NCBI RefSeq assembly: GCF_002797755.1
Contig: NZ_PGFI01000011.1
Location: forward strand, 1,674,001 to 1,738,000
From: Brevirhabdus pacifica
GTDB taxonomy: Bacteria; Pseudomonadota; Alphaproteobacteria; Rhodobacterales; Rhodobacteraceae
Length of the DNA stretch: 64,000 nt
Direction: 5' to 3'
The notes beneath the pieces are model-generated. The model was not told the DNA's origin. It was given only the letters and a program-made list of their open reading frames with translations, and searched no databases. Position 1 is the first letter of the stretch; the number at the start of each line of letters is the position of its first letter. Positions 3,701 to 14,022 of this stretch are shown here, piece after piece. The position numbers were made by a program, and so were the translations under genes.

Positions 3701-5383
3701 TTAGTGGCCCGCCCCCGCCGGGGCCGGCAGCCCCTCGATCATCACATTGACACAGGCAACCCGCCCAGAGTCCACCGCCCTTGAAAGGGCAGCATCCAGA
3801 TCCTCCAGCCGGGTGACGTATTCCCCGTGCCCGCCAAGCCCCGCGACCGCAAGATCATAGCGGGTGGGATCGAGGGTGCAGCCCACCGCGCGCCTTTCGC
3901 CGTATTCGCGAAGCTGGATCTGGTATTCAGCGTTCCAGCGGGCATCGTTGCCGATCACCGCCACGAAGGGGGTGCGGGCGCGCAGGGCGGTCTCGAACTC
4001 CGCCAGGTGGAAGCCCGACGAGCCGTCGCCCATGAAGGCCACGACCAACGCGCCGGGGCGCACCCGCGCCGCCGCCACCCCGTAGCACAGCCCGCCGCCG
4101 ATGGCGCCGGCGGGGCCGTTCAACAGGCGCTCGTCCCCGTGGGCACCGGCCTGGGCCCATTGCCCGAACTCGCCCCCGTCGCAGATCACGACCGAGCGCG
4201 GTGCTGCCTCCAGCCGCCGCTGCACCGCCTCGACCAGGGCGTCGGGGCGGATGGGCTGGCCATCTCCGTCGCGATCGCTGGCCGCCTGCGCGTTGTCTTC
4301 TTCCGCACCCTCGGCACCCTCGGGCTCATGCCGTCCGGCGCATTTCATCGCGACCTCGGTGCACCAGCCGTGGCGATTGGGCCCGGCCGTGACATCCTCC
4401 TGCCCCGCCCGTTCGATCAGGGTCGCGGCGGCAACGGCGGGCCAGGCATCGAACGTGGCCTCCAGCGCCTCGCCCAGATTGCGGACGGCGCGCTCTCGGG
4501 CCTCGGCATCCGGATCAACGACAATCCAGCGGGCCTTGGGGGCGCCGCGACCAAAATTGCTGGTGAAATCCACCGGCTTGCCCAGCGACACCACCAGATC
4601 CGCCTTGGCGAAGGACAGGGCAACGTCGCCAAGCGCCGGGTCGCGCAGGCCGCGCGGGCTTTCCATGACGATCACGGGCGCGTCCAGCGCCTCCGCCAGG
4701 TCGCGGGTCAGGCTGCCGCGCCGGGTTTCCGACAGCGAGGGGCCGGTGATGACCAGCGGGCGGCGGGCGGCGCGCAGGGCGGCGATGATCGCCTCGGCAT
4801 CGGCGGGTGGCATCGCCGGCGGCTCGGGGCGGAAGGCCGCGGCCTCAGGCGCGGTGGCATCGCCGCTATCGGCTTCCAGCACGTCGAACGGCAGTGCCAT
4901 GTGCACCGGCCCCGCCCGCCCCGAGAGCGACAGGCGGATCAGATCGGCCAGCCCCTCGCCCAGATCGTCAGCGCGCATGGCGCGGCGCGAGGCCTTGGTC
5001 AGCGGCGCGCTCATCGCCACCTGGTCCATCTCCTGGAACGCCCCCCGACCGTCGAGGGCCAGGGGCGAGTCCCCCGTCAGCAGCAGCACGGCGCTTTCGG
5101 ACTGGCGCGCGGTGTAAAGCGGGCCGATGGCGTTCGCGGCCCCCGGCGCCGCGGTCACCAGCGCCACCCCGACCCCGCCGGTCAGCTGGGCGTGGGCCTC
5201 GGCCATGAAGACGGCGGCGGCCTCGTGACGGGTGTGGATGATCTCGATCCCCGCGCTGAGGCAGGCATCGTAAACGGGCATGATCTGGTTTCCCGACAGG
5301 CTGTAGATCGTGTCCACGCCCGCCCGGGCGAGCGATTGCACCAGAAGGTCGGCTCCTCGGTTCAAGGCGGTCTCCTTTGTCAT
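3701..5383 (-). CDS. ThDP-dependent enzyme (acetolactate synthase / oxalyl-CoA decarboxylase-like)
   Basis: A 560-residue thiamine-diphosphate enzyme with the three-domain acetolactate-synthase layout. The catalytic glutamate is E54 in RHEAAAVF. The N-terminal PYR domain carries AAPGAAN and FQEMDQVAMSAP, the latter resembling oxalyl-CoA decarboxylase and 2-hydroxyacyl-CoA lyase. The C-terminal domain has the GDG-X25-N cofactor motif (GDG 452-454, N479). Residues about 352-374 form an acidic Ala/Glu/Asp-rich insert. The family cleaves or joins C-C bonds next to a carbonyl; the substrate here is unknown. Start is uncertain: the ATG at 5383 lacks a ribosome site, while AAGGAG lies 6 bases before an in-frame TTG at 5365. 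It follows tctA by about 140 bases. Confidence 0.85.
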   Translation of the reverse strand: MTKETALNRGADLLVQSLARAGVDTIYSLSGNQIMPVYDACLSAGIEIIHTRHEAAAVFMAEAHAQLTGGVGVALVTAAPGAANAIGPLYTARQSESAVLLLTGDSPLALDGRGAFQEMDQVAMSAPLTKASRRAMRADDLGEGLADLIRLSLSGRAGPVHMALPFDVLEADSGDATAPEAAAFRPEPPAMPPADAEAIIAALRAARRPLVITGPSLSETRRGSLTRDLAEALDAPVIVMESPRGLRDPALGDVALSFAKADLVVSLGKPVDFTSNFGRGAPKARWIVVDPDAEARERAVRNLGEALEATFDAWPAVAAATLIERAGQEDVTAGPNRHGWCTEVAMKCAGRHEPEGAEGAEEDNAQAASDRDGDGQPIRPDALVEAVQRRLEAAPRSVVICDGGEFGQWAQAGAHGDERLLNGPAGAIGGGLCYGVAAARVRPGALVVAFMGDGSSGFHLAEFETALRARTPFVAVIGNDARWNAEYQIQLREYGERRAVGCTLDPTRYDLAVAGLGGHGEYVTRLEDLDAALSRAVDSGRVACVNVMIEGLPAPAGAGH

Positions 5384-5524
5384 GTGGATCGGGGCGGGCC
5401 TTGCCCGGCCCCGCCGGACCGGGGCGGCGGCCACCCTCGGCGGCCGGCCCCGTCCCCGGGTCGGATTGTGAAACCTTCGCGCGGCACAGGGCCCCAAGGG
5501 GCCCGGCGCATCGCGTCAGCGGGG

Positions 5525-7036
5525 TCAGCGGGCGTCGGCGGCCCTGGCCTCGCGCTTGCGAAGCTGCCGGGTGGCGCGGTAGCCCGCGCGCACGATGGCG
5601 ACGACCGTGATCGCCGTCAGCCCCCAGAAGAACCAGGTGATCGGCCCGCGGAACAGGATCAGCGGGTTCGAGCCTGACATCAGCATCGACTGGCGGAAAT
5701 TGTCCTCCAGCAGCGGACCGAGGATGAAGGCGATCAGGAAGGGCGCGGCCGGGATCTCGTTGCGCATCATCAGATAGCCAACCCAGCCCATCACGAACAT
5801 CACACCCACGTCGAAGATGTTGTTGTTGACCGCGAAAACGCCATAGACGCACAGGATCAGCACCCCCGGCACCAGCACCCCGCGCGGGATGTCGGCGACA
5901 TAGCGGAATCCCCGGATCGCCGCCGAACCGACGAAGAACAGGAAGACCGAGCTGACGATCAGGCCGATGAAGAGGCCGTAGATGATGTCGACGTTCATGA
6001 TGAACATCATCGGGCCGGGCTGAAGCCCGTGGACCATGAAGGCGCCGATGATGATCGCGGTGATCACGTCGCCCGGCACACCCAGCGCCAGCAGCGGGAT
6101 CAGCGTGGCCCCCGCGACACCGTTGTTGCCGGCCTCGGCGGCGGCGACACCCTCGATCTCGCCCTTGCCGAAATTGTCCCGGTTCTTGGATTTGCGCCGC
6201 GCCTCGCTGTAGGACAGGAAGGCCGATGGCGCCGCCCCGATCCCCGGAATCGATCCCAAGAAGACCCCGATGAACGAGCCGCGCACGATCGAGCGGAAAG
6301 AAGCCTTGTAGTCGGCCCAGGTGACCCAGTTGCGGCCCAGCTTTCGCGCCGTGCCGTCGTTGCCCTTGGGATCCCAGACCATCGACAGGATCTCGGGGAT
6401 GGCGAAAAGGCCGATCAGCACCGCGATGAAGTTCAGCCCGCCCATCATGTTGGGATTGCCGAAGGTGAAGCGGTTGGTCCCGTAGATCAGGTCCAGCCCG
6501 ACCGTTGCCAGCAACAGCCCCAGCATCGCCGAGAACGCCCCGCGCAGCAGGCTGCGCCCCGAAACACCGGCGATGATCGTCAGCGAAAAGAGGATCAGCG
6601 TGAAGAATTCGGGCGGGCCGAAGTTCAGCGCGAAGGAGGCCAGGAACCCCGCAAACAGGATCAGCGACAGGTTCGAGATCACGTCGGCCGTGCAGGACGC
6701 CCAAAGCGCCATGCCAAGGGCGCGCCCGGCCTCGCCCTTCTCGGCCATCGGGTAGCCGTCAAGCACCGTGGCGCTGGAGGCCGGCGTGCCCGGCGTCTTG
6801 ATCAGGATCGCCGGGATCGACCCGCCGAAGATGCCGCCCTTGTAGACACCCAGCAGCATCAGGATGCCGGTGATGGGCTGCATAGCGAAGGTGAAGGGCA
6901 AGGTCAGAGCCACCGCCATGGTGGCCGACATGCCCGGGATGGCGCCGCCGATGGTGCCGATCACGACACCGGCAAACAGCGCCAGGAAGGACTCGAGGTT
7001 GCCGACCAGCGACAGGCCCGCGAGAATGCTGTCCAT
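5525..7036 (-). CDS. Tripartite tricarboxylate transporter, large permease (TctA family)
   Basis: Large membrane subunit (503 residues, normal for the family) of a TTT importer. Two internally related motifs, GAIPGMSATMAV near residue 34 and GSIPGIGAAPSAF near the middle, mark the inverted-repeat halves of TctA; many hydrophobic segments fill the rest. The ATG at 7036 is 5 bases after the tctB stop, so it is probably translationally coupled. With TctB and TctC it imports an organic anion, energised by an ion gradient. The longer open frame running to 7207 overlaps tctB and is not used. Confidence 0.92.
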   Translation of the reverse strand: MDSILAGLSLVGNLESFLALFAGVVIGTIGGAIPGMSATMAVALTLPFTFAMQPITGILMLLGVYKGGIFGGSIPAILIKTPGTPASSATVLDGYPMAEKGEAGRALGMALWASCTADVISNLSLILFAGFLASFALNFGPPEFFTLILFSLTIIAGVSGRSLLRGAFSAMLGLLLATVGLDLIYGTNRFTFGNPNMMGGLNFIAVLIGLFAIPEILSMVWDPKGNDGTARKLGRNWVTWADYKASFRSIVRGSFIGVFLGSIPGIGAAPSAFLSYSEARRKSKNRDNFGKGEIEGVAAAEAGNNGVAGATLIPLLALGVPGDVITAIIIGAFMVHGLQPGPMMFIMNVDIIYGLFIGLIVSSVFLFFVGSAAIRGFRYVADIPRGVLVPGVLILCVYGVFAVNNNIFDVGVMFVMGWVGYLMMRNEIPAAPFLIAFILGPLLEDNFRQSMLMSGSNPLILFRGPITWFFWGLTAITVVAIVRAGYRATRQLRKREARAADAR

Positions 7037-7041
7037 CAAGC

Positions 7042-7524
7042 TCACGGCAACCTCACCAGAAGACCCTGCGGAATTGCGACGCCGGCCACATGGGCGAAGA
7101 AGGCGTAAAGCAGCAGGGGAATGACGATCGCGCAGATCAGCGCGGTCTTGGGATGGCGGGTCCGCACCAGAAAGGCGGTCGCCGCGAAAGCCAGCATCGA
7201 GGTCCACACCATGCCGAGGCGCGGCAGGCCGGCCATGTAGATGACCATGATCACGGCCATGATCGCCAGCCGGAAGAACCCGCCCGGCATCTCTGCGGGA
7301 TCGGGCTCAAGCCGCTCGTCCGAACGCATGCCCGTGAACACCAGGCCCAGGCCGACCAGCAGGGTCAGCAGCGCCAGCGCATAAGGCCAGAAAAGTGGTG
7401 AAAGCACCAGTTTTCGCACGTTGCTGGGCGCGTAGACCCAGTTCGGTATCGCCACGAAGACCAGAAACAGCGCCAGCAGGATGGCGACGCCTCCGATGAT
7501 CGTCTGGCGGTGAATGTTCTGCAT
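7042..7524 (-). CDS. Tripartite tricarboxylate transporter, small permease (TctB family)
   Basis: A 160-residue hydrophobic protein with about four membrane segments (near 8-28, 42-64, 82-102 and 128-152) and no catalytic motif, as expected for the poorly conserved small TTT subunit. GGGAGG lies just before the ATG at 7524. It sits between the binding-protein gene and tctA in the usual C-B-A order, and its stop nearly touches the tctA start. The assignment rests on topology and position as much as on sequence. Confidence 0.88.
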   Translation of the reverse strand: MQNIHRQTIIGGVAILLALFLVFVAIPNWVYAPSNVRKLVLSPLFWPYALALLTLLVGLGLVFTGMRSDERLEPDPAEMPGGFFRLAIMAVIMVIYMAGLPRLGMVWTSMLAFAATAFLVRTRHPKTALICAIVIPLLLYAFFAHVAGVAIPQGLLVRLP

Positions 7525-7548
7525 GTCCCCTCCCCAGGAAGGCAGAAA

Positions 7549-7569
7549 GGGGCCGGGCGAACCGGCCCC
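7549..7569 (-). other. Intercistronic stem-loop between tctC and tctB
   Basis: GGGGCCGG and CCGGCCCC form a perfect 8-bp stem with a 5-base loop in the 63-base gap after the binding-protein gene. There is no proper T-run, so it looks like an attenuator or 3'-end stabiliser rather than a full terminator. Comparable stem-loops follow the TRAP and ABC binding-protein genes in this window. Confidence 0.55.
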
Positions 7570-7587
7570 CCGTACTGGATTCGCCGA

Positions 7588-8565
7588 TCAGCCTTCGATG
7601 CGCATTCCAAGGTCATCCACGAGGGCGCGGAAGGTCTCGTACTGGCTTTTGATGAAGGCGTTGGCATCCTCCGGGCTCATCAGTTCGATGACCGAACCGC
7701 GGCTTTCCATCTTCTCGCGGAAATCGCCAGCGTCGACGGCCTCGGCCATCCACTTGCCCCACTTGTCGGCCACGTCATCGGGCAGGCCCTTGGGGCCCGC
7801 GATGCCGGTCCAGCCGACCAGCTGGTGCAGGTTGGGCTTGCCCAGATCGGCGGCGGTCGGCGCGTCGAAACCGACGACCGGCTCCTTGGTGGTGATCAGG
7901 ATCGGCTTGAGCTGATCGTTCGCCACGAAGCTGGCCAGCGCCGAGGAGTTGGTACAGATGAAGGTCGCGGTGCCGTTGAGCACGGCCGTCGCGGCCTCGC
8001 CGCCGCCCTTCTGCGGGATGTGGGTCGCCGCGTCGAGCGGGTTCTCCACGCCGAATTCGCGCAGCACCATGACACCGGCCAGGTGCAGCAACGAACCCAC
8101 GCCCGAGGACGAGAAGCTGACGCCGCCCTCGTTCACCTTGGCGATCAGGTCGTCCATGCTTTCGATGCCGCTGTCGGGACGCACGGCGCAGGCCACGGGG
8201 TTGATCTCGTAGACCGTGACGAAGCGGAAATCGTCCAGCGTGTAGGGCAGCGTCGCCTTCATCGCGGGGTTGACCGAGTGGGACCCCACGCGCGCGAAGA
8301 GCATGGTGTAACCGTCGGGTTTTGCGTTCTGGACGGCCACCGATCCGGTGGCGCCACCGGCCCCGGTCACGTTGGCCATCACCAGCGGCTTGCCGACCGC
8401 CTGGCCCAGGGGCTCTGCGATGGTGCGGGCCGAGATATCGGTCGCACCGCCCGCCCCGTAGGGGATGACCATGTTGATCGGACGTTCAGGATATTCCGCC
8501 AAGGCGGCGGTAGACGCGAGGCCGAGCGCAAGGGCACCGACCGCTCCGAACTTGAGCAATTTCAT
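7588..8565 (-). CDS. TTT-system substrate-binding protein (TctC/Bug family)
   Basis: Periplasmic Bug-type binding protein of 325 residues with a signal peptide ending LASTAALA (about residue 23). The mature part opens with YPERPINMVIPYGAGGATD, the canonical Bug start in which the first ligand loop follows the first beta strand; ARTIAEPL, GAGGATGS and the pattern FARVGSHS follow. Bug proteins bind carboxylates such as citrate, malate, aromatic or sulfonated acids, and the ligand cannot be named from sequence. It is the first gene of the left operon, and its start faces lysR across a 167-base control region. Confidence 0.92.
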   Translation of the reverse strand: MKLLKFGAVGALALGLASTAALAEYPERPINMVIPYGAGGATDISARTIAEPLGQAVGKPLVMANVTGAGGATGSVAVQNAKPDGYTMLFARVGSHSVNPAMKATLPYTLDDFRFVTVYEINPVACAVRPDSGIESMDDLIAKVNEGGVSFSSSGVGSLLHLAGVMVLREFGVENPLDAATHIPQKGGGEAATAVLNGTATFICTNSSALASFVANDQLKPILITTKEPVVGFDAPTAADLGKPNLHQLVGWTGIAGPKGLPDDVADKWGKWMAEAVDAGDFREKMESRGSVIELMSPEDANAFIKSQYETFRALVDDLGMRIEG

Positions 8566-8732: not shown

Positions 8733-9635
8733 ATGTCGATCAGAATGCTGAAGACCTTGATCGCGGTAGAGCAGAACGGGACCTTCAGCGCCGCGGCAGA
8801 CGCGGTTTTCGTCACGCACGCGGCCGTCAGCCAGCAGATGAAGGCGCTGGAGCAGGAGTGGCAGATCGCCCTTTTCGACAGGACCAAGCGCACACCCGAA
8901 CTGACCCCTGTCGGCCGCGCCATCGTGGCCAAGGCCAAGGAGATCGTGGCGGCCTATGACAACCTGGTGCCCTCGGTCGTGGGCGATGACGGGTTGAAGG
9001 GCACGCTGACACTGGGGGCGCTGCCGACATTGCTGACGGCGATGCTGCCCCTGGCCATTTCTCTACTCAAGGAAACCTACCCCGAACTTCACGTCGCCGT
9101 CGTGCCGGGCCTGACGAACGAGCTTCTGCCCCAGGTCGAGCGGGGCACGCTGGACGGGGCCATCGTCTCGCGGCCCCTGGTGATCCCGCGCAACCACATC
9201 TGGGCCGAGGTCGCGCAGGAGCCGCTGGAACTGCTGGTCTCGGACTGCAAGCAAAGCAACGATCCGATCGAGCTTCTGCAGAACAACCCCTTCATCCGCT
9301 TCTCGCGCAACGCGGTTGTCGGCGGCATGATCGAAAACTGGCTTCAGGAGCGCAATATCAAGGTGAACGAAAGCATGGAGCTCGAATCGCTCGAGGCCAT
9401 CTCCTCGATGGTGGCCGGGGACCTGGGGGTGTCGATCGTGCCCCGTCCCTCGGTGCAAAGCATGAACCCCCTGCCCCTCCGGCGCATTCCGCTGGGCCCT
9501 GACGCACCGGCGCGGATCCTCGGGATGATCAGCATGGCCGGCAACCTGCGCATGCGCGGCGTTGAAGAGGCCCACCGCTCGTTGCTGGACGCGGTGCGCG
9601 CCGGTCGCTTCCGGCCCGGACGCTCCGCCGCATGA
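8733..9635 (+). CDS. LysR-family transcriptional regulator
   Basis: 300 residues. The N-terminal winged helix-turn-helix spans about 3-60 (FSAAADAVFVTHAAVSQQMK, recognition helix around VSQQMKALE). A linker helix and a two-lobed effector-binding domain follow. It is divergent from the TTT operon, so it probably controls that promoter and its own. The stop overlaps the start of the TSUP gene as ATGA, so regulator and transporter are made from one message. The effector is probably the transported acid or a metabolite of it. Confidence 0.92.
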   Translation: MSIRMLKTLIAVEQNGTFSAAADAVFVTHAAVSQQMKALEQEWQIALFDRTKRTPELTPVGRAIVAKAKEIVAAYDNLVPSVVGDDGLKGTLTLGALPTLLTAMLPLAISLLKETYPELHVAVVPGLTNELLPQVERGTLDGAIVSRPLVIPRNHIWAEVAQEPLELLVSDCKQSNDPIELLQNNPFIRFSRNAVVGGMIENWLQERNIKVNESMELESLEAISSMVAGDLGVSIVPRPSVQSMNPLPLRRIPLGPDAPARILGMISMAGNLRMRGVEEAHRSLLDAVRAGRFRPGRSAA

Positions 9636-10393
9636 GCGCGGTCTTCGACCTCGGCCCCTCGTTCCTGATGCTGCTGGCCGCCGGCGCGGCCGCGGGCGGG
9701 TTCATCAACGGGCTGGCGGGCTTTGGCACCGCGCTTTTCGCCCTGGGCTTCTGGCTTCAGATCATGACCCCGGTCGAGGCGGTCGCGATCGCGGTGGTGA
9801 TGTCGGTCCTGTCGGGCCTTCAGGGGGTCTGGATCGTGCGTCACTCGATGCTGGAAAACCCCCGCCGCCTGGCGCGTTTCCTGCTGCCGGCGATCTTCGG
9901 CATTCCGCTGGGGGTGGCCCTGCTGACCGTGCTGGACGCCCGCAGCCTAAAGATATTCATCGGTGCGTTTCTATTGCTTTACGGCGGGTTCTTCACCTTG
10001 CGCCGCTCCTTGCCCAAGTTCGAGCGTCCGGCGCCGGTGATCGAAGGGGTGATCGGCTTCTTCGGCGGTATCCTGGGCGGCGCGGCCTCGCTCTCGGGCT
10101 CCTTGCCGACCATGTATCTTTCGATGCGGCCCTGGACGAAATCCGAGACGCGCGCGGTTCTACAACCCTTCAACGTGACCGTTCTGGCCCTGACCACGGG
10201 GGCCTTCGCGCTTCAGGGCGCCTATGACGCGCAGGCATTGCTGCGGATCATGGTGGCGCTGCCGGTGACGATGGTCTTTGCGCAGGTCGGCATCATGGTC
10301 TTCAAGCGGCTCAGCGACGGCCAGTTCCGCCGCCTGCTGATCGCGATGATGTTCCTGTCCGGGCTGGTCCTGCTGGCAAGGGAGTTCCTGTGA
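9632..10393 (+). CDS. TSUP/TauE-SafE family membrane transporter
   Basis: 253 residues with about eight membrane segments in two similar halves; GGFINGLAGFGTALFAL near residue 20 and GGILGGAASLSGSLPTMYL near residue 145 are the repeated re-entrant motifs of the TSUP family. Characterised members export sulfite or move sulfonated or carboxylated organic anions. The start overlaps the lysR stop by 4 bases, and the stop overlaps the next start by 1 base. Whether it exports a waste anion (for example sulfite) or imports substrate is inference. Confidence 0.9.
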   Translation: MSAVFDLGPSFLMLLAAGAAAGGFINGLAGFGTALFALGFWLQIMTPVEAVAIAVVMSVLSGLQGVWIVRHSMLENPRRLARFLLPAIFGIPLGVALLTVLDARSLKIFIGAFLLLYGGFFTLRRSLPKFERPAPVIEGVIGFFGGILGGAASLSGSLPTMYLSMRPWTKSETRAVLQPFNVTVLALTTGAFALQGAYDAQALLRIMVALPVTMVFAQVGIMVFKRLSDGQFRRLLIAMMFLSGLVLLAREFL

Positions 10394-11562
10394 TGCCCAC
10401 CCCCACCATCGAGCATGTCGAGGTCTTCTGCCACCGGGTGCCCATCAGCGCCCCGGTCTCGACCTCCTTCGGGATCATGACCAGCCGCCCGGGCGTCTTC
10501 GTGCGCCTGACCGACAGCGACGGCGCTTTCGGCTGGGGCGAGATCTTTGCCAATTGGCCTGCCGCCGGGGCCGAGCATCGCGCGCGCCTGCTGATCGAGG
10601 ATATCTCGGACCTGGTGCTGGGGCAGCGGCCCGAAGCGCCCGGCGACCTCTGGCACCATCTGGACCGGGCCACCCGCATCCGCGCCCTGCAATGCGGCGA
10701 ATGGGGGCCCTTCGCCCATGTGCTGGCCGGGCTCGACACCGCCATGCACGACATGGACGCCCGGCGCGCGGGCCTGGCCCTGTGGCGCCACCTGGCGGCT
10801 GACGGCGATGCCCCGGGCCCCGCCCGCGTTCCGGCCTACGCCAGCGGCATCCACGTGGCCGATGGGACCCGCACCCTCCCCCGGGAGCGCGCCCGGGGAC
10901 ACCGGGCCTTCAAGGTCAAGATCGGCTTTGATGCGTCTGAACCCGCGCTGCTGGAAACGCTATGCGGGATGCTGGAGCCGGGCGAGAGCCTGATGACCGA
11001 TGCCAACCAGGCCTGGACGCTCGACGAGGCGCTGGCCTTCGGAGAGGCGACCGCCGGCCTTCCCCTGCGCTGGCTGGAAGAGCCGATCGCCGCCGACAGC
11101 CCCGATGAGCATTGGCAGCGTCTGTCCCGCGCCATTCCCCACCCGCTGGCGGCGGGCGAGAACATCGCGGGCGCGGCGGATTTCGCCGCCGCCACCGCCT
11201 CGGGCACCCTCGCTGTGATCCAGCCCGATGTCGCCAAGTGGGGCGGTGTGACGGGTTGCCTGATCGCCGGGCGCGCCGCCGTCGCCGCCGGGCACAGCTA
11301 TTGCCCGCATTTTCTGGGCGGCGGCATCGGCCTGTTGGCCTCGGCCCACCTGCTGGCAGCGGTCGGCGGGCCGGGCGCGCTGGAGATGGACGTGAACCCA
11401 AACCCCCTGCGCGATGCCTTCCCGGGCGCCGACCCGGTGCCGGTCGAGGGCGCGGTCGCCCTGTCCGATGCCCCCGGCCTCGGGATCGAGGCGCTGCCCC
11501 CCGAGATCGCGCGTTACCGCACCCTCGCCCTGTCCCGCAGCCGCAGCCAGGCCGGGACCTGA
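10393..11562 (+). CDS. Mandelate racemase/muconate lactonizing enzyme family protein
   Basis: Enolase-superfamily enzyme of 389 residues. The barrel holds FKVKIG (K174, K176), metal ligands in TDAN (D203), LEEP (E229) and GEN (E256), then QPDVAKWGG (D279) and CPHF (H306), with E331 behind. The Asp-His pair is 27 residues apart, the spacing I recall for D270/H297 of mandelate racemase. This points to the mandelate-racemase subgroup, with Lys and His bases on opposite faces: an acid-sugar dehydratase or a racemase. The ATG at 10393 overlaps the TSUP stop (TGATG) and has GGAG 8 bases upstream. It probably acts on the acid imported by the neighbouring transporters. Confidence 0.9.
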   Translation: MPTPTIEHVEVFCHRVPISAPVSTSFGIMTSRPGVFVRLTDSDGAFGWGEIFANWPAAGAEHRARLLIEDISDLVLGQRPEAPGDLWHHLDRATRIRALQCGEWGPFAHVLAGLDTAMHDMDARRAGLALWRHLAADGDAPGPARVPAYASGIHVADGTRTLPRERARGHRAFKVKIGFDASEPALLETLCGMLEPGESLMTDANQAWTLDEALAFGEATAGLPLRWLEEPIAADSPDEHWQRLSRAIPHPLAAGENIAGAADFAAATASGTLAVIQPDVAKWGGVTGCLIAGRAAVAAGHSYCPHFLGGGIGLLASAHLLAAVGGPGALEMDVNPNPLRDAFPGADPVPVEGAVALSDAPGLGIEALPPEIARYRTLALSRSRSQAGT

Positions 11563-11668
11563 ACCTATGAAGATGCGATGACAGACGATGACACGCCGCC
11601 CCGGGGCCCCTAAAACCGGATCGAACGCTTCGGAATTCCCACGCTCCAATGACCCAGGAACACCAGCC

Positions 11669-12283
11669 ATGAACATTCTTTTCTACGCCAAGGGCACCGC
11701 CGCCCTTCCCCCCCATATCGTGCTGGAGGAGATCGGCGCCCCCTACGAGGTCCGGCGCGTCGATTTCGCCGCCAACGAGCAGCAGTCGTCCGACTACCTT
11801 GAGGTCAACCCGCGCGGCCGCGTGCCCGCCCTGGTGACGCCCGATGGCATCCTGACCGAGGCGCCCGCCATCCTGACCTACCTGGGCCAGACCAACCCCG
11901 AGGCCGGGCTGATCCCCAGCGATCCCTTCACCCTTGCCCGCGCGCAGGAATTCAACAGCTACGTCTGTGCCACGGTGCACGTGGCCCACGCCCACCGGGT
12001 GCGCGGCCACCGCTGGACCGACGATGCGGCGGCGATCGAGTCGATGAAATCCAAGGTCGCCCAGAACATGACCGATTGCGCCGAGATGATGCAAAACCAT
12101 TTCCTGCGCGGCGAATGGGTGCTGGGCGACAACTACTCGATCTGCGACCCCTACCTTTTCCTGGCCTGCCGCTGGATCATCGCCGACGGCGCCAACATCG
12201 ACGATTTCCCGGCCCTGCGCGCCCATTACGATCGCATGCTCGCGCGCCCCGCGGTCGCCAAGGTGCTGCCCCTGCACGAGTGA
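11669..12283 (+). CDS. Glutathione S-transferase family protein
   Basis: 204-residue GST unlike the one at 3025. The N-terminal domain has FYAKGTAALPPHIVLEE, the cis-proline loop RGRVPALV and the glutathione-contact TEAPAI. The C-terminal helical domain ends in YSICDPYLFLACRW. It resembles beta-class bacterial GSTs. AGGA lies 9 bases before the ATG at 11669; the open frame to 11588 has no better start. It sits between the enolase-superfamily gene and the Lin0512 pair, so the cluster has a GST on each arm. Confidence 0.87.
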   Translation: MNILFYAKGTAALPPHIVLEEIGAPYEVRRVDFAANEQQSSDYLEVNPRGRVPALVTPDGILTEAPAILTYLGQTNPEAGLIPSDPFTLARAQEFNSYVCATVHVAHAHRVRGHRWTDDAAAIESMKSKVAQNMTDCAEMMQNHFLRGEWVLGDNYSICDPYLFLACRWIIADGANIDDFPALRAHYDRMLARPAVAKVLPLHE

Positions 12284-12324
12284 TCGGGCCCCGGCCCGTC
12301 CACATCTATCCCGGAGGAACACGG

Positions 12325-12696
12325 ATGCCCCGCAAGAGAATGGTCATCGAATACGGCATGGGAACCTCCCTGCGCCGGCAGGACTACACCCAGGCCGCGC
12401 GCCGGGCGGTCGAGAACGCCCTGTGGCGCAACTCGCTCACCCTGGCCGAGCTGTTCGGCTTTGCCCGCGACGACATGCGCATCGAGGTGGAGATCGGCGT
12501 CCAGAAGCCCGAGGCGGTGGACACCGAGGCGCTGAAAGGGATCTTTCCTTACGGCGCGCCCGAGATCCGGGCCCGCCATGGCGGCCTCGACACGCCCAAG
12601 CCCGACGGCAACGGCGCGACCCTGATCGCCAATTGCGCCATCATCGTCAGCTTCGACATGGATAGTGCCGCACAGGGCAAGGAGAACGGGTCATGA
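12325..12696 (+). CDS. Lin0512 family protein, copy A
   Basis: 123-residue cytoplasmic protein of the uncharacterised Lin0512 family. It opens with MVIEYGMGTSLRRQDYTQAARRAV and continues with a beta segment (MRIEVEIGVQKPEAVD) and a Gly/Ala-rich C-terminal half with ANCAIIVSFD. The family signature as I recall it, GxGxDxHG, is reduced here to GMG plus TSLRR at the first Asp/His/Gly positions. GGAGG lies 8 bases before the ATG at 12325. The stop overlaps the start of a second family member, so the two are probably made together. No function is known. Confidence 0.8.
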   Translation: MPRKRMVIEYGMGTSLRRQDYTQAARRAVENALWRNSLTLAELFGFARDDMRIEVEIGVQKPEAVDTEALKGIFPYGAPEIRARHGGLDTPKPDGNGATLIANCAIIVSFDMDSAAQGKENGS

Positions 12697-13067
12697 GCGA
12701 GATGAAGCGCCTGCTGATCCAGATGGGCCAGGGCACCGACAGCGAAGGCGACGCCACCGCCGCCGCCCGCGCCGCGATCGAGAATGCCCGCCAGGGCGCC
12801 GATCTGCGCATTTTCGAGACGCTGGACCTCGATCCCGGCCGGGCCGAGCTGCGTGTCGGACTGGGCCTGCCCGATCCCTACGCCGCCAACCTCGACGCCC
12901 TGCGCAACATGCTCGAGGCCGGCCCATGGGGCAAGGTGGTGATCCGGCCCTGTGTCGGCGGCCTCGCCATCACCGATCCCCTCGGCGGCCACGAGCATGT
13001 GACCGTCGCCGCGGCGCTGGAAACCTTCGTGCCCGATGCCGGTGGCCCCTGGCGCGCAGACGGCTGA
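12693..13067 (+). CDS. Lin0512 family protein, copy B
   Basis: 124-residue paralogue of the preceding gene, sharing the layout MKRLLIQMGQGTDSEGDATAAARAAIENA, then a predicted strand (RAELRVGLGLP) and a C-terminal half with VVIRPCVGGLAIT. It keeps G-x-G-x-D-x-x-G but has Glu where the family signature has His. The ATG overlaps the copy A stop (ATGA, 12693-12696). Two divergent tandem copies, each with a different part of the signature lost, suggest an obligate heteromer. Function unknown. Confidence 0.8.
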   Translation: MSEMKRLLIQMGQGTDSEGDATAAARAAIENARQGADLRIFETLDLDPGRAELRVGLGLPDPYAANLDALRNMLEAGPWGKVVIRPCVGGLAITDPLGGHEHVTVAAALETFVPDAGGPWRADG

Positions 13068-13245: not shown

Positions 13246-14022
13246 ATGAGTGTCAAAACAGCCGAGAACACGCTGGATATTTTCGAAGCCTTCGCCGAAC
13301 TGGGGCGCCCCGCGACCCTGGACGAGCTGTCCGAGGCGACAGGCATTCCGTCGCCCGAATGCGCCGAACTGCTGCACTGCCTCGAGGAACGCGGCTACCT
13401 TGTGCCCCCGCGCGGCGAAGGGCCGGTCTACCCGACGGGCCGGCTGATGCAGGTGGCCTCCGAGATCACCGCCAACGATCCCGTCACCCCCGGCGTCCTG
13501 ATGCAGATGGACGCCCTGCGCGACGAACTGGACGAAACCGTCGTCCTCGGCACATTGCGCGGCGCGCGGGTGATCTACCTGCATGTCTCGCCCTCGCGAC
13601 AGCCGGTGCGCTACGCCCCCGGCGCCGGCACCAGCCGCCCGGCCCACGCCAACTCGATCGGCCGGGCGATCCTGGCCGCGGTCTCGCCCGAGCGGCGGGC
13701 CGCCGCGATGAAGCGGATGCGGTTCCAGGCGCTCACCCCCGACACCCCGGCCAACGCCGAGGCGCTGGAAGCGATCATCATCGAGGGTGCCGACCGCGGC
13801 TGGGCCGAGAACATTGGCGAAAGCGACAGCGACCTCGCCGCAGTGGCCTGCCCTGTCGTCGTCAACGGCATGGTGCTGGGCCTGTCGGTGGGCGGCCCGC
13901 GCCACCGCATCGTCGACGCCCCGCCCGAGCGGATCGCCGAATCCCTGGCCCGGGCCTGCGCCCGGATCGAGGAGACGATCCGCCAGGCCGCGCGCGAAGA
14001 AGCCGAGCAGTCGGCCGACTGA
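13246..14022 (+). CDS. IclR-family transcriptional regulator
   Basis: 258 residues. The N-terminal winged helix-turn-helix (about 5-60, with ATLDELSEATGIPSPECAELL) is followed by a GAF-like effector domain with RPAHANSIGRAILA and PVVVNGMVLGLSVGGP, both typical of IclR proteins. AAGGGG lies about 12 bases before the ATG. It follows the Lin0512 pair by 178 bases on the same strand and probably regulates the catabolic cluster alongside the LysR protein; two regulators of different families suggest that two metabolites are sensed. Confidence 0.9.
   Translation: MSVKTAENTLDIFEAFAELGRPATLDELSEATGIPSPECAELLHCLEERGYLVPPRGEGPVYPTGRLMQVASEITANDPVTPGVLMQMDALRDELDETVVLGTLRGARVIYLHVSPSRQPVRYAPGAGTSRPAHANSIGRAILAAVSPERRAAAMKRMRFQALTPDTPANAEALEAIIIEGADRGWAENIGESDSDLAAVACPVVVNGMVLGLSVGGPRHRIVDAPPERIAESLARACARIEETIRQAAREEAEQSAD

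Follow-up and report, generated by a model that had tools for sequence, protein, structure and literature searches.

A tandem pair of Lin0512 paralogues in Brevirhabdus pacifica falls into two clades shared with its relatives and probably forms a heteromer

We analysed a window of 64,000 nucleotides from Brevirhabdus pacifica (contig NZ_PGFI01000011.1, positions 1,674,001 to 1,738,000), in which two small Lin0512 genes, here called copy A and copy B, close a run of genes on one strand. The features are as follows, in window coordinates:

8733-9635, + strand: LysR-type regulator, which opens the same-strand run closed by A and B
9632-10393, + strand: TauE/SafE-family membrane protein, with 4-base overlaps with the LysR end and the next start
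10390-11562, + strand: mandelate racemase/muconate lactonizing enzyme-like (MR/MLE) protein
11588-12283, + strand: glutathione S-transferase-like (GST) protein, given from its first possible start, although it may really begin further downstream
12313-12317, + strand: Shine-Dalgarno-like GGAGG ahead of copy A, read off the sequence
12325-12696, + strand: Lin0512 copy A, 123 aa, A-clade paralogue (ORF call, Pfam, column table, tree)
12679-12684, + strand: Shine-Dalgarno-like AAGGAG ahead of copy B, read off the sequence
12693-12696, + strand: ATGA stop-start overlap of the A and B reading frames, read off the sequence
12693-13067, + strand: Lin0512 copy B, 124 aa, a paralogue of the B clade with a very long branch (ORF call, Pfam, column table, tree)
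13246-14022, + strand: IclR-type regulator 3' of copy B

The - strand at 3704-8565 encodes a thiamine-diphosphate enzyme and the tripartite tricarboxylate transporter proteins TctA and TctC, in divergent orientation to the run that leads from LysR through TauE, MR/MLE and GST to A and B.

The first-pass annotation had described two small proteins of one family whose frames overlap by 4 bases, and this was borne out by the shared ATGA and by Pfam, in which both copies match PF09585 (Lin0512) above the gathering cut-off of 23.4 bits (A, 112.2; B, 39.4). With TIGR02058 (NCBIfam cut-off 56.85 bits; A, 59 bits above; B, 31 bits below) the two copies part, and copy B is best placed under PF09585 and in the B clade rather than under TIGR02058. 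The family signature named in that annotation, GxGxDxHG, is real, being conserved in the lone copies of our column table, and it is incomplete in both window copies. As had been proposed, A lacks D-x-H-G: in its motif, EYGMGTSLRRQDYT, the signature D and HG are replaced (Asp/His/Gly to Ser/Arg/Arg) and QDYT is retained, and the copy also has GMGTSLRRQDYT, with PYG and IAN kept. The motif of B, QMGQGTDSEGDAT, retains the D and has Glu in place of His; this copy carries GQGTDSEG and PWG. The signature is a mark of the lone-copy form of Lin0512 rather than of the whole family modelled by Pfam.

Predicted models of A and B (mean pLDDT 83.4 and 90.8) both matched 3C8L with Z 14.9 over 112 residues (rmsd 2.1 and 2.2). 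This protein, Npun_R1471, is the only solved relative that we found; its structure, titled "FtsZ-like protein of unknown function", dates from 2008, and Lin0512 is still called of unknown function. A search of open-licence literature found no paper on Lin0512, PF09585, TIGR02058, Npun_R1471 or the 3C8L structure.

We then surveyed the family across genomes. The Lin0512 domain was present in 90 of 295 genomes of the same bacterial family, taken to be Rhodobacteraceae, and 87 of these 90 had exactly two matches; the exceptions were G223 with four, G193 with one, and the window genome with one (two in its own search). The single copy of G193 (L110) belongs with the lone copies and is neither an A nor a B that has lost its partner, and G193 is the only such genome among the 295. 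In a sample of the class, taken to be Alphaproteobacteria, the domain occurred in 20 of 289 genomes, 16 of them from other families and all 16 with two matches, and in a sample of the phylum it occurred in 26 of 398. Another proteobacterial class (that of G595, probably Gammaproteobacteria) yielded matches in 4 of 274 genomes, one of which had two; in one record from another proteobacterial class (L234, G1069), a sub-cut-off Lin0512 match (21.3 bits) lies inside a 2074-residue open frame. Family f8, represented by ten genomes in the phylum sample, had nine with one match and one, G488, with a full and a partial match. The partial match (L309) spans 45 columns about 0.8 kb from the full copy and is possibly the relic of a second copy; it was dropped by the length filter of our script, and G488 is counted as lone copy. 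A wider contig scan, run with a mixed alignment, turned up at least 570 relatives; the 80 best of them were retained, all of which proved to be lone copies and about 50 of which are titled Bradyrhizobium. Viral contigs gave four pattern matches, none related to A.

Where there are two copies, they lie side by side. An adjacent head-to-tail A-B pair was found in 103 of the 104 two-copy genomes whose loci were read (loci of 4.9-19 kb; six two-match genomes, G101, G115, G176, G239, G263 and G270, are omitted from this reading). The sole exception, G847, carries its copies on two contigs. Across 135 pair loci, counted with duplicates and with starts picked by script, the gap between A and B ran from -11 to +14 and was exactly -4 in 68.

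A tree of 134 rows (54 A, 54 B and 26 lone copies) separated the copies almost completely. Only 5 label changes were needed against a minimum of 2; shuffled labels gave a mean of 59.4, and none of 200 shuffles was as low as observed. The changes beyond two come from the B of L121, which falls among lone copies, and from the split copies of G847, entered as lone, of which L302 lies in the B clade and L303 in the A clade. Branch supports are modest (67 of 131 inner branches under 80) because the alignment has only 119 columns. L121 is an odd pair on long branches, from the genome with four matches (G223); by code it belongs to the same family, but it was grouped with the "other" pairs in the tree, context table, tblastn search and residue counts.

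The two clades differ by nearly fixed substitutions, which, with the tree, makes the outcome of the two-clade check proposed in the first-pass annotation largely positive. Our column table compares 103 A rows, 103 B rows and 87 others (lone copies, 3C8L and the two split copies of G847), with column numbers that follow the 3C8L stretch (chain residue = number + 1):

Column 15: D 100% in others; S 82% in A; D 93% in B
Column 17: H 99% in others; R 96% in A; Y 51% and H 45% in B
Column 18: G 100% in others; R 79% in A; G 98% in B
Column 36: S 93% in others; N 100% in A; S 96% in B
Column 78: Y 97% in others; Y 86% in A; R 77% in B
Column 111: N 98% in others; N 80% in A; T 41%, S 38% and Q 16% in B

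Residue 17 of B is Tyr in 53 and His in 46 of the 103 pairs; one A, that of L305, retains His17. In the 17 pairs from other families (L121 excluded), the A copy has Asp-x-Arg-Gly together with His78 in 13 (exceptions L093, L099, L100 and L305), and the B copy lacks Asn111 in 16 (exception L100). We infer that A gave up His17 and B gave up Asn111 early on, and that Ser15 and Arg18 arose in A later.

The annotation had further read the two copies as decaying in a complementary way. This holds for a few residues, namely the N-terminal motif in A and C-terminal residues in B, and fails as a general rule. Using 76 pair representatives (without the window) and 24 lone copies, we found 37 columns conserved in lone copies, of which 9 are lost in A and 8 in B, with 5 lost in both. 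The losses private to A fall at columns 10, 15, 18 and 38 and those private to B at 78, 111 and 116, and the split of these seven between the N-terminal and C-terminal halves gave Fisher p 0.029. Over all 37 conserved columns the test for mutually exclusive losses was negative (hypergeometric 0.999), the overlap being above chance. Nor did the more specific idea of an active site built around a shared His find support. In residue counts over all 103 pairs, His17 was absent from both copies in 56, including that of the window, so that it cannot be essential to a shared site, and paired forms can do without the signature His. The Glu that replaces it in B, pointed out in the first-pass annotation, occurs only in the window genome among the 103 pairs; elsewhere the residue is mostly Tyr or His.

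Retained side by side, and each having lost different conserved residues, A and B probably form one mixed complex. We therefore favour, with a probability of about 0.6, the reading that both derive by an ancient split from a Lin0512 protein that was once single-copy, have specialised, and most likely work together as an obligate A-B heteromer; the heteromer idea of the first-pass annotation is the natural reading of the family-wide evidence, which strengthens it. The two subunits would be made from overlapping reading frames, each with the predicted fold of 3C8L, a small alpha/beta domain, and a putative ligand site would lie at the A-B interface. B would supply the N-terminal end of this site, Asp15/(His or Tyr)17/Gly18, and A would supply Tyr78/Asn111, while the reciprocal site (Arg17 of A with Arg78 and Ser/Thr111 of B) would be dead or regulatory. 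The pair in the window would represent the same arrangement in a fast-evolving state, above all in B.

Such a division of labour sets the pair apart from 3C8L and the lone copies, which share the family and, by prediction, the fold of A and B (Z 14.9 for both) but carry D-x-H-G and P-Y/F-G in one chain; in the window the conserved features are split over two paralogues. There is precedent for a small enzyme assembled from two diverged homologous subunits in the tautomerase superfamily, in CaaD and the heterohexameric 4-oxalocrotonate tautomerase, and CaaD is described as three alpha-beta dimers whose alpha and beta chains are 19% identical (PMC5818174). These enzymes differ from A and B in having another fold and N-terminal proline chemistry, and their heteromeric state is proven where that of A-B is inferred.

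Beyond 3C8L, the structural matches were to the FtsZ C-terminal domain, YjgF/RidA and IspF, at Z 5.8-7.8; for scores in this range the comparison tool warns that the arrangement may be no more than a common one. The next best after 3C8L were FtsZ C-terminal domains (Z 7.8 for A and 7.4 for B), followed by IspF (6.5 and 5.8) and YjgF/RidA (6.2). At weak similarity, the predicted fold also recurs in FtsZ (C-terminal domain), RidA, Bacillus chorismate mutase and IspF, and several of these proteins form ring-shaped oligomers whose sites lie between subunits. In Pfam, neither A nor B matched IspF (YgbB, PF02542), FtsZ or RidA (Ribonuc_L-PSP, PF01042) at E <= 1, and hhalign profile comparison against the sequences collected here for IspF, RidA and FtsZ_C reached a probability of 3.5% at most. 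Homology to FtsZ_C or RidA thus found no support by profile; an identity as FtsZ, which calls for a GTPase domain plus FtsZ_C, was set aside, as A and B have only 123 and 124 residues and no FtsZ model matched at E <= 1. In IspF, strand 1 ends in a D-x-H metal site, and the motif letters there resemble those of Lin0512 (GHGYDVH against GMGVDVH). An IspF-like metal site is therefore attractive by letters, but it is unsupported by the profile comparison and by the structural alignment, whose range ends (the only part compared) do not suggest that the two motifs lie opposite each other.

The alternative that A and B are two independent homomers of diverged specificity, whose adjacency may be kept for co-regulation alone, is possible but unlikely. 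It would account for the overlap of conserved losses, which are not mutually exclusive, and for the fact that each window copy retains the columns invariant in its alignment with lone copies. It is also consistent with a mirror-tree comparison of 30 loci, in which the correlation between A and B (r = 0.51) was not above that between A and CobN (r = 0.53) and thus shows no excess co-evolution of A and B. However, the frames overlap or nearly touch in 135 of 135 pair loci, G847 still has one A and one B despite their separation, and the only lone copy among the 295 same-family genomes (G193/L110) is of the lone-copy type, with no stray A or B.

We also considered whether the window pair is simply decaying, with B functionless and on its way out. 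Copy A is typical (rank 81 of 103 by mean distance), with an Arg at column 35 that is found in 9% of A copies. Copy B is the most divergent of all (rank 103 of 103), with an end branch of 2.11 against a median of 0.25; it has Glu at column 17, has lost Arg27, His35, Ser36, Ser37 and Met53, and retains 22 of the 37 conserved columns, the second lowest count of 103. Its best matches among 147 relatives searched were B copies of at most 43% identity, a contig scan with it found no close relative, and a search of the genus found only the window's own genome. Against decay, B has an open frame with a ribosome-site-like sequence, a base composition by codon position that resembles its neighbours, a retained invariant core and a confident predicted model (mean pLDDT 90.8), and its relatives L253 and L242 show some of its changes in milder form. 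We consider decay distinctly unlikely and keep to a diverged heteromer as the reading of the window pair.

The neighbourhoods of the pairs offer one recurring hint to a ligand in the window's bacterial family, which would be corrinoid metabolism. By cluster labels, cobalamin genes lie near 33 of 85 same-family pairs, an AddAB region near 11, MttB near 7 and an ABC-transporter context near 5, and all four contexts are absent from 29. The commonest cobalamin layouts are CobO-A-B-CobQ and CobW-CobN-CobO...A-B-BluB; according to gene calls made by a simple script rather than a gene finder, CobO is the next gene upstream in 19 of 103 pairs and CobQ the next downstream in 11, with the CobO-A and B-CobQ frames nearly touching. 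BluB adjoins three pairs (NCBIfam), and an MttB gene directly follows B in 6. Each neighbour label was verified on a single member or a small number of them: CobN, CobW, CobG, CobO and BluB, with CobO also, and CobQ, by Pfam, and further threonine-phosphate decarboxylase, CbiB, HslV, GuaA, MTTB and DUF1636. In AddAB, AddA was verified by its helicase and nuclease domains, and the AddB label is provisional; another neighbour we take from its sequence to be thioredoxin. By tblastn, at least one marker gene (MttB included) was present in 41 of 84 same-family loci, a set that leaves out the window and L121, and markers were found near none of the 17 other-family pairs and in none of 90 lone-copy loci (these include the two split copies of G847 and leave out L230, which is under 4 kb).

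Across whole genomes, CobN-grade matches (best E below 1e-100) occurred in 74 of the 90 genomes with the Lin0512 domain versus 134 of the 205 without it (Fisher p 0.0035), by a hand tally of 208 of 295 where the tool counts 205 over its cut-off; weaker matches near 1e-80 were taken for BchH. The remaining 16 of the 90 domain-bearing genomes, 3 of them under 85% complete, have no CobN-grade match, and CobO (TIGR00708) is missing from 8 of the 16. The CobO counts among CobN-less genomes were 8/16 with the domain versus 16/54 without it (one of these last 16 matches being below cut-off), the latter set being 54 of 71 such genomes. With 16 domain genomes lacking CobN and 8 of these also lacking CobO, the pair is not tied to the making of cobalamin, and we rejected a strict dependence on B12 synthesis.

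A dedicated role for the pair in cobalamin biosynthesis within the window's bacterial family, near the CobO, CobQ or BluB steps, is improbable: the shared loci, the nearly touching frames and the excess of CobN-grade matches favour it, but the CobN-less genomes and the marker-free loci of other families and lone copies speak against it, and the cobalamin neighbourhood may reflect few inherited events (12 COB label changes, 5 of them forced by starred branches). Both the cob and the MttB neighbours would be in keeping with a part in the use or handling of corrinoids, to which we assign a low probability and which has no support outside the window's family. In its fuller form, A-B would be a so far unrecognised heteromeric factor associated with corrinoids or methyl transfer. 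It would bind a corrinoid, or some intermediate, near CobO/CobQ/BluB, would have been put to use again next to MttB-type methyltransferases and would outlast the loss of cobalamin synthesis in some genomes, with the window's pair as a diverged user; we regard this as quite improbable as a whole. A literature search found no paper covering all of the cob-operon neighbours together.

Other neighbours recur on a smaller scale. In the MttB-linked pairs L105, L268, L272 and L291 the next gene upstream is GuaA (GMP synthase; identity by NCBIfam for L105 only), and three Hyphomicrobiales records (L157, L188 and L221) have GuaA in the vicinity of a lone Lin0512 gene. The lone Lin0512 genes of L159, L161, L171 and L222, from SAR116 and Gammaproteobacteria records, have a gene of the homocysteine S-methyltransferase family (PF02574 for L159 only) one to two genes upstream on the other strand; L161, L171 and L222 have further neighbours in common.

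The first-pass annotation had looked to the surrounding catabolic operon for a role. In tblastn searches (E <= 1e-20) of 192 other loci, each over 4 kb and comprising 102 pairs and 90 lone copies, the window's LysR, TauE, GST and IclR proteins had no match, and its MR/MLE protein had one, at 30% identity, in L245. This operon is therefore specific to the window genome, and since its genes are absent near other pairs, bar that one match, it cannot give the family its role. That A-B serves the window's own operon of LysR, TauE, MR/MLE and GST is very improbable in view of these searches, even though A-B lies on the same strand 41 bases downstream of GST with no terminator-like site from GST to A (one lies within MR/MLE, at 11289-11307).

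The A-B pair thus offers a testable case of a family of unknown function that would be split into an obligate two-part form. It shows which residues two chains can share out between them, a pointer to the functional site, and the recurrent cobalamin context is a testable lead to the pair's job: in the window's bacterial family, the two-part form of Lin0512 may be concerned with corrinoid metabolism.
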